The position numbers were made by a program, and so were the translations under genes. Positions 12,351-57,705 of a DNA stretch of 64,000 bases are shown in pieces. Position 1 is the stretch's first letter. Every line of letters starts with the position of its first letter. The stretch is from Bacteroidota bacterium (GTDB lineage Bacteria > Bacteroidota > Bacteroidia > Chitinophagales > Chitinophagaceae): NCBI GenBank assembly GCA_016866355.1, contig VGMN01000003.1:62001-126000 (forward strand), read 5' to 3'. The notes under the pieces are model-generated. The model was not told where the DNA came from and did not search any database. It was given only the letters and a program-made list of their open reading frames with translations.

Positions 12351-12383
12351 ACAATTAAATTTAATTTTAAAATCACCCCTCCC

Positions 12384-12398
12384 TTGCTAATTTAGCAA
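12384..12398. repeat. Hairpin B in radA leader
   Basis: TTGCTA-ATT-TAGCAA, a perfect 6-bp stem with a 3-base loop, directly after the C-rich strand that can pair with hairpin A. Confidence 0.5.
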
Positions 12399-12407
12399 TA
12401 GAATTTA

Positions 12408-12422
12408 ATGGGTTAGTAAGTA
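12408..12422 (+). repeat. 15-nt segment complementary to the 29.9-kb sRNA candidate
   Basis: ATGGGTTAGTAAGTA. Its exact reverse complement occurs at 29943-29957, inside the sRNA-like unit before yicC. Here it sits immediately 5' of the terminator-like hairpin of the radA leader. Confidence 0.6.
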
Positions 12423-12457
12423 AAAGGGTCAGTCGAAAGATTGGCCCTTTTCATTTT
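12423..12457 (+). terminator. Terminator-like hairpin just upstream of radA
   Basis: AAAGGGTCA pairs with TGGCCCTTT (one U-G pair) around a loop containing CGAAAGA, at 12423-12450. It is followed by TCATTTT. It lies 11 bases before the radA ATG at 12462, in an interval with no upstream gene on this strand, so it would act on a leader transcript (attenuator) or end a small RNA. Confidence 0.5.
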
Positions 12458-12461
12458 AAGT

Positions 12462-13853
12462 ATGAGTAAAACTAAAACATCATTTTTCTGCCAACACTGC
12501 GGTCATCAAAGCGTAAAGTGGTTGGGTCAATGTCCTGGATGCGGCACATGGAATAGTTATGTAGAGGAGATAGTACACAAAGACAATGCAAAAGAATATC
12601 AGGATTGGTCTGCCTACGGCGAAGAAAAAAGAAAAGGAAAAATAACTACGCTTGATCAGGTTAAAAGCAATCAGGAGCGTCGTATTGTAACGTGCGATGC
12701 GGAGTTGAATCGTGTACTCGGCGGTGGCATTGTGCTAGGAAGTTTGATATTGGTTGCTGGTGAACCAGGAATTGGAAAATCTACTTTGTTTTTACAAACT
12801 GGTCTTTGGTTAAAAAATGTTTCCGTACTCTATATAAGCGGTGAAGAAAGTGAACAGCAGATAAAGATGAGAGCGGATCGATTACAATTACAAAACCCGG
12901 ATTTTTATTTATTGACTGAGACCAACACCAGTGTAATTTTTCAGGAGATAAAAAAATTAAAACCGGGATTGATTATTGTTGATTCAATTCAAACGCTTCA
13001 AACTCCTTTTCTGGATGCATCAGCAGGTTCAGTATCCCAGATCCGCGAATGTGCAGCAGAATTTCAACGCTTTGCAAAAGAAACTAACACACCGGTATTT
13101 TTGATTGGTCATATTACTAAAGAAGGGCAGATTGCAGGTCCCAAAGTATTGGAGCATATGGTAGATACCGTATTGCAATTTGAAGGGGACCGACACTATG
13201 CATACAGGATACTGCGTACACTCAAAAATCGCTTTGGGAGTGCTGCCGAGTTGGGTATTTATGAGATGAATGAAACGGGTATGCGAGGCGTTCTTAATCC
13301 CAGTGAAATTTTACTCACACAAAAAGAAGAAGCACTAAGTGGTATTGCCATTGCTGCCACGCTTGAAGGAATGCGGCCCTTATTGATTGAAGTGCAAGCA
13401 TTAGTTACGCAATCTGTTTACGGTACTCCTCAGCGAACAGTAAGTGGGTTTGATCTGCGTCGCTTACAATTATTATTGGCAGTATTAGAAAAAAGAGGCG
13501 GGTTTCAATTTGGCAACAAAGATGTATTTCTAAATATTGCGGGCGGGTTGAAGGTTGAAGATCCTTCCATTGATTTAGCAGTATTGTGTGCGTTACTATC
13601 CTCCTACGAAGATATACCACTCCCCTCCTCGATTTGTTTTGCTGGCGAAGTGGGATTGAGTGGAGAAATCAGAGCGGTTAATCGGATTGAGCAACGTATT
13701 GCAGAAGGTGCCAAATTAGGCTTTGAAAAAATTATTGTTTCCCGATATAATTACAAAGAGAAAAAAAATAGACCTGCTTCCAAACAAAGTGGTATTGAAG
13801 TAGTGGCATTAGCCCGGGTCGAAGAACTCTATCGTTACTTATTCGAAAGATAA
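12462..13853 (+). CDS. radA: DNA repair protein RadA/Sms
   Basis: RadA is a RecA-like ATPase and helicase that promotes branch migration in recombination and transformation. Zn-finger cysteines C10, C13, C24 and C27 are at the N-terminus. Walker A GEPGIGKST is at 100-108, the RadA-specific KNRFG motif near 254, and a C-terminal Lon-like domain follows (KVEDPSIDLAVLCALLSS). Length 463. I use the ATG at 12462 because a longer reading from TTG 12441 would start inside the terminator-like hairpin. comF follows after 7 bases, giving a recombination/competence operon under an unusual structured leader. Confidence 0.96.
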   Translation: MSKTKTSFFCQHCGHQSVKWLGQCPGCGTWNSYVEEIVHKDNAKEYQDWSAYGEEKRKGKITTLDQVKSNQERRIVTCDAELNRVLGGGIVLGSLILVAGEPGIGKSTLFLQTGLWLKNVSVLYISGEESEQQIKMRADRLQLQNPDFYLLTETNTSVIFQEIKKLKPGLIIVDSIQTLQTPFLDASAGSVSQIRECAAEFQRFAKETNTPVFLIGHITKEGQIAGPKVLEHMVDTVLQFEGDRHYAYRILRTLKNRFGSAAELGIYEMNETGMRGVLNPSEILLTQKEEALSGIAIAATLEGMRPLLIEVQALVTQSVYGTPQRTVSGFDLRRLQLLLAVLEKRGGFQFGNKDVFLNIAGGLKVEDPSIDLAVLCALLSSYEDIPLPSSICFAGEVGLSGEIRAVNRIEQRIAEGAKLGFEKIIVSRYNYKEKKNRPASKQSGIEVVALARVEELYRYLFER

Positions 13854-29849: not shown

Positions 29850-29942
29850 TGGATTTTTAAAATGTTGATAAAATGGATGCGAAAAAATTTTTTTAATAAA
29901 CAAATAAGTTCTTAATATTGTGTAGGGAAATTCGTTTCCCAG

Positions 29943-29957
29943 TACTTACTAACCCAT
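29943..29957 (+). repeat. 15-nt element, reverse complement of radA-leader segment
   Basis: TACTTACTAACCCAT matches 12408-12422 exactly in the opposite orientation. In both places a GGG/CCC hairpin with TTCG in its apical part (reading the minus strand at radA) precedes the element by 2-3 bases. Confidence 0.6.
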
Positions 29958-29965
29958 CCATATAG

Positions 29966-29992
29966 ATCCCTCCGGTTTCGGAGGGATTTTTT
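29966..29992 (+). terminator. Rho-independent terminator
   Basis: ATCCCTCCG-GTTT-CGGAGGGAT, a 9-bp perfect stem followed by TTTTTTATTT. It lies between divergent genes, so it must end a short plus-strand transcript starting in the same interval. Confidence 0.8.
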
Positions 29993-30029: not shown

Positions 30030-30905
30030 ATGCTTAAATCAATGACCGGCTTTGGTAGAGCTTCTGTTTCCGTAGGAGATAAAGTTCTTTCCATTGACCT
30101 CAAATCGCTCAATGGCAAACAGTTTGAACTACAGTTAAAAATGCCAGCCATACTCAAACCGTATGAGTTTGAAATCCGAAAATGTTTAGCGGAAAATTTA
30201 GGACGGGGCACTGTAGATTGTCAAATCAGTTTGAAAGAAGCCGGCCCTTCTGTTCCTGTTTCAATCAATACGCAGGTGGCTCGTTCGTACTACCAACCGT
30301 TAGCACAATTAGCCACTGAACTAGGTTTAGATACCACTCATTTGCTGCCTTCACTATTGAAACTGCCTGATGTAATAGTTTCCGGAGGTGATGGTCTGAA
30401 AGAAGAAGAATGGGAATTATTTAAAAAAGGATTACAGGAGGCCATCAAGGCAATTAATAAGCATCGTAATGAGGAGGGGAAAGCCCTGGAAGTTGATTTA
30501 CTAGAGCGAATCAACCAAATTGAGAAGCGACAAACTGCCATCACTGCTTTAGATCCGGTGCGTCGAGAAAAATTACGCGCTTCCATGAATAAGTCAATGC
30601 AAGAGCATCTCAAAGAAGAAGCCATTGATCGAAACAGGCTCGAGCAAGAGCTGATCTATTATATCGAAAAGATGGATATAACCGAGGAGTTGGTTCGCCT
30701 TAGCAATCATTGCAGTTATTTTAGGGAGCAGGTAGCAACAGCCGAAGAGGGAAAAGGGAAAAAACTCTCTTTTATACTACAAGAAATAGGCCGCGAGATC
30801 AATACCACGGGCTCCAAAGCGTATGATGCCGGCATCCAGCGGTTAGTGGTAGAAATGAAGGACGAACTGGAAAAGGCAAAAGAACAGGTGCTTAATATAC
30901 TCTAG
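30030..30905 (+). CDS. YicC/YloC-family endoribonuclease
   Basis: A 291-residue protein beginning MLKSMTGFGRA, the hallmark of the YicC family. The C-terminal DUF1732 region has the conserved stretch RLEQELIYYIEKMDITEE and GKKLSFILQEIGREINTTGSKA. YicC proteins are hexameric endoribonucleases; in E. coli YicC promotes decay of the small RNA RyhB. That link is notable because an sRNA-like unit lies directly upstream. The ATG at 30030 fits the family start. gldH follows after 34 bases with its own -7 box. Confidence 0.92.
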   Translation: MLKSMTGFGRASVSVGDKVLSIDLKSLNGKQFELQLKMPAILKPYEFEIRKCLAENLGRGTVDCQISLKEAGPSVPVSINTQVARSYYQPLAQLATELGLDTTHLLPSLLKLPDVIVSGGDGLKEEEWELFKKGLQEAIKAINKHRNEEGKALEVDLLERINQIEKRQTAITALDPVRREKLRASMNKSMQEHLKEEAIDRNRLEQELIYYIEKMDITEELVRLSNHCSYFREQVATAEEGKGKKLSFILQEIGREINTTGSKAYDAGIQRLVVEMKDELEKAKEQVLNIL

Positions 30906-53721: not shown

Positions 53722-54069
53722 TTATGCCTTGTTTTGTTGTAATTGTTTTTCTCTGAATCGAGCGTAAAATGATTTAGCAAAATTCTTCATATCCTCTACC
53801 TGATCAGCGTACTGTGTGGCGCGGCCATAGGTATCCGCCATAGTCATCAGTGTTTGATAAAAAAAATCTGCCATTTCATCAACCATCATTTCTTTGGTCC
53901 ATAAATCAATACGCAGTGCGGCTTTATCCGCCGGATCCCAGAAGGAAAGAAACATAGCACGTGCCGGCTGATTTTCTGCAGCTCCTGTATCACTGGCTTT
54001 CCAGCTAATAGAGGCAGGGATGCGATTTTCATCAGTTTTTACCTCGATATGAATGGTTGATTGTTGCAT
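53722..54069 (-). CDS. gldC: Gliding motility protein GldC
   Basis: GldC is a small soluble protein that stimulates gliding in Flavobacterium. The GldC pattern is clear: ISWKASDTG, AMFLSFWDP, LRIDLWTKEMMVDEMADFFYQTL and MADTYGRAT. It has 115 residues from ATG 54069. The longer reading to 54090 is ruled out because its first codon lies within the -7 box (TATCTTTG, minus, 54088-54095). First gene of the gldC-yqeY-cvpA operon. Confidence 0.93.
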   Translation of the reverse strand: MQQSTIHIEVKTDENRIPASISWKASDTGAAENQPARAMFLSFWDPADKAALRIDLWTKEMMVDEMADFFYQTLMTMADTYGRATQYADQVEDMKNFAKSFYARFREKQLQQNKA

Positions 54070-56454: not shown

Positions 56455-57705
56455 ATGATTGCTTGGGATACACTTTTACTGTTTGTTTCTACGCTTCTAC
56501 TAATGGCCTTTTTTGCAGGTATTGAAATGGCGTTTTACAGCGCCAATCGACTAAGTCTTGAGATCAAAAGAAAAAAGCAAGAAAGCGTCGCTAAAACGGT
56601 GGGTACGTTCTTTGAAACCCCGGATCGATTCCTGGGGACTACTCAACTTGGTTTCATCCTTTTTTTAGTACTTCTCAGTTTACAGCTCAGCGATGTCATG
56701 CAATTAGTTTGGCAGCGCTTTCAAATTGGCACGGACCTATTTCGTTTGTTTGTTGAAGTGTTGCTGGCTACGTTGATTGTAATGATAGGGGGAGAATTTT
56801 TTCCCCGCGCTCTTTTTCGGGCAAATAGTACCACTTTATTATTACGATTTGCACCAGTTATACAATTATTCTATCGACTATTTTATCCAATTGCCACAGC
56901 ACAGATGGACGCCGCTGAATGGGTGCTGAAGTATGTATTCAACCTACGGCTGCAACCTCAAAAAGGTTCTTTACATCGAGCAGATCTTAAAAATCTATTT
57001 GAAGGAGTGGCTGAAGAAAGAAATGAACGAAGTGCCCAGTTGATGGAAAACGCCCAGGAGCTTCCTAAAATACGTGTCAGGCAGTGTCTGGTGCCAAGAA
57101 AAGAAGTAGTGGGTGTTGACAGCCGTTTATCTCTAAAACAATTACAACAAACATTTATAGACACTAAACTGAGCAAGCTGGTTGTATATGATGGAAACAT
57201 TGACCGTATCATTGGTTATGTACACCAACTTGATCTTTTTGCGCAACCAAAGCAGATTGCCGAGATACTGCATCCAATCCCCGCAGTTCCTGAAAGTATG
57301 AGTGCCTCAGACTTAATTGGGAAGTTTAGCCGAGAGCGAAAAAGTATTGCCTGGGTCGTAGATGAATTTGGAGGAACAGCCGGAATTGTAACTATGGAAG
57401 ATGTGTTGGAAGAACTTTTTGGAGAAATACAAGATGAATATGATACCGAGGAGTTTTTAGAACAAAAATTGGAAAATGGGGACTTTATTCTGTCCGGTCG
57501 TTTGGAATTAGATTATTTGCAAGAAAAATACGGGCTTGAGTTTCCCGGAGAGGAAGCGGAAACACTGTCTGGCTATATTATCAATTACCACGAAACCATC
57601 CCTACGCAAAAAGAATGTATCATCATTGCAGACTATGAATTTGAAATTCTGCATGTATCTGATACAAGGATAGAAACAGTTCGCTTGCATCGATTACAAC
57701 GTTGA
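56455..57705 (+). CDS. CNNM/CBS/CorC-type membrane protein (hemolysin family)
   Basis: A 416-residue membrane protein related to GldE at 5740-7071. The DUF21/CNNM domain covers ~1-175 with three or four hydrophobic segments. Two CBS domains (~200-320) follow, including VVDEFGGTAGIVTMEDVLEELFG, and a CorC/HlyC domain ends the protein. CNNM proteins are linked to Mg/Co efflux. Start is ATG, 1 base after the gmk stop, so it is probably co-transcribed. A tatC promoter lies just beyond its stop. Confidence 0.9.
   Translation: MIAWDTLLLFVSTLLLMAFFAGIEMAFYSANRLSLEIKRKKQESVAKTVGTFFETPDRFLGTTQLGFILFLVLLSLQLSDVMQLVWQRFQIGTDLFRLFVEVLLATLIVMIGGEFFPRALFRANSTTLLLRFAPVIQLFYRLFYPIATAQMDAAEWVLKYVFNLRLQPQKGSLHRADLKNLFEGVAEERNERSAQLMENAQELPKIRVRQCLVPRKEVVGVDSRLSLKQLQQTFIDTKLSKLVVYDGNIDRIIGYVHQLDLFAQPKQIAEILHPIPAVPESMSASDLIGKFSRERKSIAWVVDEFGGTAGIVTMEDVLEELFGEIQDEYDTEEFLEQKLENGDFILSGRLELDYLQEKYGLEFPGEEAETLSGYIINYHETIPTQKECIIIADYEFEILHVSDTRIETVRLHRLQR

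Follow-up and report, generated by a model that had tools for sequence, protein, structure and literature searches.

A pair of conserved small RNA-like units with complementary unpaired segments in Chitinophagaceae, one of them resembled by phage-borne units

The window analyzed here, a 64,000-nucleotide stretch of a Chitinophagaceae draft genome, contains two small RNA-like units, designated RNA A and RNA B. Judged by sequence and folding, they are candidate RNA genes at two separate loci, and an accessible segment of one is complementary over a long stretch to an accessible segment of the other. We consider it somewhat probable that A and B are trans-encoded sRNAs that pair with each other and that B is a sponge dedicated to antagonizing A, one that phages imitate.

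The initial annotation reported that ATGGGTTAGTAAGTA, at positions 12408 to 12422 of the plus strand, is the exact reverse complement of positions 29943 to 29957, and this was confirmed, as was the distance of 39 bases between the 12.4-kb site and the radA start codon at position 12462. The 15-mer also lies, as had been described, inside the unpaired part of the 29.9-kb unit (RNA A), which resembles an sRNA gene. The 12.4-kb site had been taken for the radA leader, but it is not simply that; it forms the unpaired 5′ portion of another sRNA-like unit (RNA B) that has a promoter-like box and a terminator of its own (Table 1).

Table 1. Predicted features of the two RNA units and their neighbors in the window
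Feature	Position	Strand	Basis and remarks
B promoter-like boxes	12364–12395	+	ATTTT 12364–12368; TAATTTAG 12388–12395
RNA B, predicted extent	12398–12452	+	Model R2 match, 84.3 bits, E 9.9e-18; in 80/85 family genomes
B pairing segment	12408–12422	+	Core ATGGGTTAGTAAG 12408–12420, exact in 76/78 copies; complement of 29943–29957
B terminator-like hairpin and T-run	12422–12451	+	Folds; two-sided changes at 4/11 pairs
radA, neighbor of B	12462–13853	+	ORF table; name from the initial annotation and a conserved-neighbor search with this ORF, not from a family scan
A promoter-like boxes	29888–29920	+	T-run 29888–29894; TAATATTG 29913–29920
RNA A, predicted extent	29924–29991	+	Model R1 match, 87.2 bits, E 4.6e-18; in 84/85 family genomes
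A 5′ hairpin	29925–29940	+	Fold, alignments; absent or reduced in some divergent genera
A pairing segment, unpaired in fold	29943–29957	+	Core CTTACTAACCCAT 29945–29957, exact in 79/84 copies
A terminator hairpin and T-run	29964–29992	+	Fold, alignment
yicC, 3′ neighbor of A in the window	30030–30905	+	Pfam YicC-like domains

RNA B, with a predicted length of about 55 to 60 nt, consists of the unpaired AATTTAATGGGTTAGTAAGTA (also given as AGAATTTAATGGGTTAGTAAGT) between its promoter boxes and its terminator, and the folding z score for positions 12398 to 12456 is −5.27. A TAnnTTnG box occurs at most 20 bases upstream of B in all 78 copies, TAATTTAG being the most frequent form (58 copies), and an ATTTT-like box is kept across the aligned copies. 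RNA A, with a predicted length of about 70 nt, has a hairpin between its promoter box and the unpaired TACTTACTAACCCAT (also given as TACTTACTAACCCATCCATAT), which is followed by the terminator. The box upstream of the family copies of A reads TAATATTG in 80 of 84 and TATTATTG in 3, and is unrecognized in 1. The boxes of both units are promoter-like by their resemblance to TAnnTTTG, the reported consensus for the −7 box of flavobacterial sigma-A (PMC9723704), and we infer from them that the two units are transcribed. At five loci (L135, L138, L142, L144, and L146; genera g37, g53, g47, and g54), A appears without its 5′ hairpin in the model alignment, with core and terminator kept. A hairpin that pairs the B segment with upstream bases, obtained in a 91-nt fold, was set aside because it uses the promoter box and because the aligned sequences of the genus do not retain its upstream arm.

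The match between the two regions had been assigned a chance probability of about 1e-4, which turned out to be an unfair test, since inverted 15-mers are frequent in the window. Pairs separated by more than 200 bases number 12 (8 distinct places after merging of those that overlap), whereas 20 first-order Markov windows had a mean of 3.75 and a range of 1 to 11. Among the seven other places is a 17-base inverted repeat at 53733–53749 and 57135–57151. The genome-wide search called for in the initial annotation revealed exactly two exact copies of the 15-mer in the 1.76-Mb draft genome (36 contigs), both in the window, while the reversed control 15-mer had none; with up to three mismatches allowed, the two pairing sites were the only places found in the window (mean of shuffles, 2.06). 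The extended 17-mer GGATGGGTTAGTAAGTA occurs, with up to three mismatches, at 9 places in the genome versus 8 for its reversed control. This near equality, together with the two exact 15-mer copies, ruled out a dispersed repeat.

The duplex of the two unpaired segments alone reached −22.7 kcal/mol, a value attained by none of 5,000 shuffles; since these segments had been picked for their match, significance rests on conservation and not on the shuffle test. Energies computed for the whole-RNA duplex separated real from shuffled sequences poorly (median of −32.0; best of 300 shuffles, −35.5), and cofolding of A with B left both terminators intact. The bare 15-nt match proves little, and it is conservation that carries the case.

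Of the 35 genomes of the genus, 34 gave a match to A and 32 a match to B, and among the other 23 of the 58 relatives searched, the sole match, in G041, was limited to the start of yicC. Distant congeners showed a strong match to the RNA and then a separate, weaker match to the coding start, indicating that each RNA is under its own constraint. In the genus alignments (A1, 22 of 30 loci; A2, 23 of 30 loci), the A stem carries two-sided changes at 3 of 15 pairs, which was equaled by 47 of 500 shuffles (1 of 500 by covariation score), and the count for the B stem (Table 1) was equaled by none of 500.

Covariance models R1 (for A) and R2 (for B) served to search 298 genomes of the order, and the family sample comprised 85 Chitinophagaceae genomes from 39 genera. 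Family matches to A had E values from 9.6e-20 to 0.023, and the core pattern was present in all 84 genomes with A. The 80 genomes with B are the 78 of the core-pattern set plus G014 and G024; those lacking a good R2 match are three g25 genomes, G218, and G291. On named contigs, A was found in at least 119 stretches, and among the 80 listed, the contigs are mostly from Chitinophagaceae or unclassified Bacteroidota; they include Sediminibacterium, Niabella, Niastella, Hydrotalea, and Ferruginibacter, as well as some metagenome-assembled genomes labeled Sphingomonadales or Sphingobacterium. Both segments were kept in relatives, contrary to the one-sided conservation that, in the initial annotation, would have spoken against the pairing.

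Beyond the family, 27 genomes of the order matched A and 58 matched B at an E value of ≤0.05 (best, 4.9e-6 for each); the core was missing from all four A matches examined and from four of the five B matches examined, and the fifth, in G110, carries the B-like TTTAATGGTTTAATAAGTA. With family members excluded, 295 genomes of the class gave no A match and one B match (G470, without the core) at an E value of ≤1e-5. The G110 unit (L241, from another family of the order) and a further B-like unit in G210 (L251; TTTAATGAGTGAATACTTA) have altered cores and are possibly a distant relative and a paralogue, respectively, with partners of their own.

In 74 of the 85 family genomes, A and B are perfectly complementary over the 13-bp core: both cores are exact in 72 of the 77 genomes with both RNAs in the alignments (36 genera) and in G014 and G024. 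Among the others, two genomes (G293 and G295) have one G·U pair in the core, three have a mismatch, and one (G315) has B with no A detected by R1. Standard pairs fill 998 of 1,001 cells over the 13 core columns, compared with fractions of 0.16 to 0.46 when the columns are slid by one to three, figures that are to be read with the selection in mind, as the pattern used to pick copies leaves just two columns of A and one of B free to vary and the core is also rewarded by the models. No A match in the family was lost to this pattern, nor was the best B match of any family genome with an E value below 1e-5; the second B-like unit of G210 was lost to it, and the second matches of G189 and G321 were left out.

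Where the pairing stretch ends, so does the constraint on A, the two bases that follow being conserved in 63 and 51 of 77, whereas the conserved block of B runs seven bases further upstream than the pairing stretch. In the three g25 genomes, B appears to have been rebuilt: TACGATGGGTTAGTAAGTA is followed by a terminator, and the upstream block is gone but the 13-bp core is kept. Thus, although the abundance of inverted 15-mers in the window would make a coincidence between two unrelated conserved RNAs conceivable, such a coincidence is largely disfavored and merits hardly any credence, as the two segments hardly vary within the family, the core is what they have in common, and it was retained where B was rebuilt. 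In G218 and G291, TAGATGGGTTAGTAA with a terminator stem is complementary to the genome's own A over 15 bp, extended in the other direction; RadA is absent from the 200 bases on either side, and the site may represent an RNA of its own or an mRNA end.

The initial annotation had proposed looking for co-conservation with compensatory changes. The co-conservation was borne out, but no true compensatory double change was seen. In genus g43, A has a C-to-A change and B a G-to-A change at the same pair. The resulting A·A mismatch is present in the two genomes of the alignment, and a pattern search found it in all six; this is not compensation and fits a relaxed constraint on both sides after the pair broke. 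These g43 mismatches and that of G297 are uncompensated, and they stand against a sponge role for B, as does the presence of B without a detected A in G315. In one g43 genome (G319), GTGTGTTAGTAAGTAT with a hairpin, located near base 1501 of L433 just after a gene reading as recA, pairs with the changed A of that genome over 17 contiguous pairs, with G·U allowed (−22.1 kcal/mol), which may be chance.

The g43 changes also bear on whether the shared 13- to 15-mer is a DNA operator of one protein, placed at both promoters, so that the complementarity would reflect opposite orientation only. Both copies do lie shortly downstream of a promoter-like box. An operator is nonetheless very improbable, given that the genome holds just two copies, that in both units, which have stems and terminators, the segment falls precisely within the unpaired part, and that the g43 copies have changed to different bases in the operator orientation.

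The neighborhoods of the two RNAs were then compared. RadA is encoded in the flank of 28 of the 30 B loci examined, whereas an LpxD-like gene lies near 28 of 30 A loci and YicC within 1.5 kb in 20 of 30. YicC is linked to sRNA decay, a link for which no support was found in the literature searched. At one g50 locus (L131), B stands beside rng with no RadA within 1.5 kb, and at another (L093), A has neither of its usual neighbors, indicating that both RNAs can stand alone. No RadA was found within 1.5 kb of B in the one g25 genome checked (L424) or in the examined stretches of the phage contigs described below (L380 to L382).

These contexts do not support the initial proposal that a trans-acting RNA controls radA-comF: B ends in its own terminator before radA, and B also occurs without RadA. 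The proposed effect of pairing on termination was not supported either, as the pairing segment lies beside, and not inside, the terminator stem, and no attenuation switch is apparent. Put in terms of the two RNAs, the initial proposal would make B a leader or attenuator acting in cis on radA, with A regulating radA-comF in trans. B does precede radA at nearly all loci, and read-through of its terminator could feed radA; however, B is not always located before radA, being found without RadA in g50 and g25 flanks and in the examined phage stretches, and pairing overlaps the terminator stem only at its first weak pair, so that no alteration of the terminator was found. We therefore regard a radA leader as very improbable. 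The initial annotation had also considered that the two loci belong to one RNA family on opposite strands. The hairpin on the radA minus strand is the reverse complement of the B terminator, and a single opposite-strand family was rejected, as the promoter box and T-run of both units point to transcription on the plus strand.

B-like units were also found in viral contigs. The B 21-mer occurs in L380 and L381, which represent one phage (1 difference in 4,525 bases) and whose B-like unit has a different terminator; L381 carries genes for ClpS and a D5-like regulator. In L382, GAATTTAATGGGTTAGTAAG follows TAATTTTG and precedes a terminator stem, with terminase and tail-lysozyme genes nearby. The box, judged by eye, is an exact TAnnTTTG in L382 and imperfect in L380. 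L380 and L381 passed the automatic terminator test, while the loop in L382 exceeds the limit of that test and its stem was revealed by folding. Thus, two unrelated phage contigs bear B look-alikes with a terminator. Of 28 viral stretches with a B 17-mer or 16-mer, only these three resemble B. Their model E values (2.7e-8 and 6.4e-6) overstate independence, since the units were found via the core; the terminator, the box, and the new context are the independent part. The extended A pattern was present in no viral contig searched, and nine viral stretches with an A 17-mer, having no terminator and weak model scores, were not counted as A. GenBank phages and plasmids gave only partial, weak short matches (E values of 2e-3 or worse). 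An unannotated stretch of Cellulophaga phage Nekkels_1 (MT732443.1; L490:1501–1523), CATTTAATGGGTTTGTAAGTAAA, agrees with the window's B at 22 of 23 bases (E value of 0.3) and by eye has no strong terminator; it may have arisen by chance or may mimic a flavobacterial relative.

The family-wide co-conservation and the phage look-alikes suggest a dedicated RNA-on-RNA switch and not control of radA. We propose that A and B would pair in the cell over the 13- to 15-bp core through their single-stranded segments. A would be the regulator, whose exposed segment may also bind mRNAs, and B a target mimic dedicated to inactivating A; some phages would carry a B look-alike to disable A during infection. 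A role for B as the mimic fits the phage copies, the loss of other B features in g25, and the constraint on A that ends with the pairing. Candidate mRNA targets of A did not stand out, near-full-length sites being no commoner in the genome than for the control (9 versus 8). Hfq (Pfam) was found in none of 12 genomes (8 of the genus and 4 of other families), with the control positive in 5 of 14. An Hfq-type chaperone is common, though not universal, among proteobacterial sponge systems, and its absence here, like the lack of an excess of target sites, speaks against the sponge reading.

The seven extra conserved bases of B are left unexplained by the sponge model, and they keep the opposite wiring in play: B may be the regulator, or carry a functional two-codon frame (AUG GGU UAG), with A as an antagonist covering the B start codon, or the control may be mutual. 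The conserved block of B reaches upstream to GAATTTA just before the ATG, and an active B could also benefit a phage. On the other hand, the upstream block has been lost in the three g25 genomes while the core stays, and the second codon differs in g43. We judge a reversed or mutual wiring unlikely, though worth keeping in view beside the proposed action of B on A. A still bolder extension of that action is that the pair forms a family-wide RNA-only switch in Bacteroidota that is attacked by phages: Chitinophagaceae phages would encode a B mimic neutralizing A, so that A would be either a master regulator relevant to infection or, in an RNA-RNA (type VIII-like) toxin-antitoxin or an anti-phage device, the active half to which B is the antidote. 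This is speculative, and we hold it to be rather doubtful.

Neither RNA corresponds to an entry found in the resources searched. Rfam 15 gave no match in the window at the gathering cutoff, permissive searches gave only matches far below it, and literature searches, with most subscription journals outside their coverage, found nothing on A or B. Type VIII RNA-RNA toxin-antitoxin pairs are encoded by neighboring loci. A and B would resemble them in that a small RNA is neutralized by a complementary small RNA, a likeness that is one of sequence, but they lie 17.5 kb apart. In Caulobacter crescentus, the sponge CrfA and the sRNAs SisA to SisD provide a case in which one sRNA inactivates others by pairing (PMC12559287). 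As proposed for A and B, one sRNA there disables another from a separate gene; unlike A and B, which are known from sequence and comprise a single partner each, the CrfA-SisA system was found via Hfq, was demonstrated by experiment, and has four partners, according to that source. AgvB of an E. coli prophage is described as an anti-sRNA against GcvB, and SprY as acting against RNAIII (PMC12197685). The putative phage B-like units are similar in being phage- or prophage-borne RNAs that mimic the targets of a host sRNA, but, unlike AgvB as described there, they resemble a host-encoded partner, B, that is conserved in the host family. GibS of Bacteroides thetaiotaomicron is a 145-nt RNA with mRNA targets, reported with a remark that no obvious Hfq or ProQ homologue was noted (PMC7366714). 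Like GibS as presented in that report, A and B would be conserved Bacteroidota sRNAs with a long unpaired conserved segment; their sequences are different, and the Rfam match of B is at chance level (19.6 bits versus a cutoff of 115). The A-B pair would thus work like sponge systems and phage anti-sRNAs, but it is a separate pair.

sRNA regulation in Bacteroidota is little understood, and Hfq is missing in the genomes searched. Two near-perfect partner RNAs, kept almost letter for letter over 39 genera, offer a test case for Hfq-free RNA-RNA control. Models R1 and R2 would permit the pair to be annotated where Rfam has nothing, and the circuit would be of importance in infection should the phage copies act as mimics.
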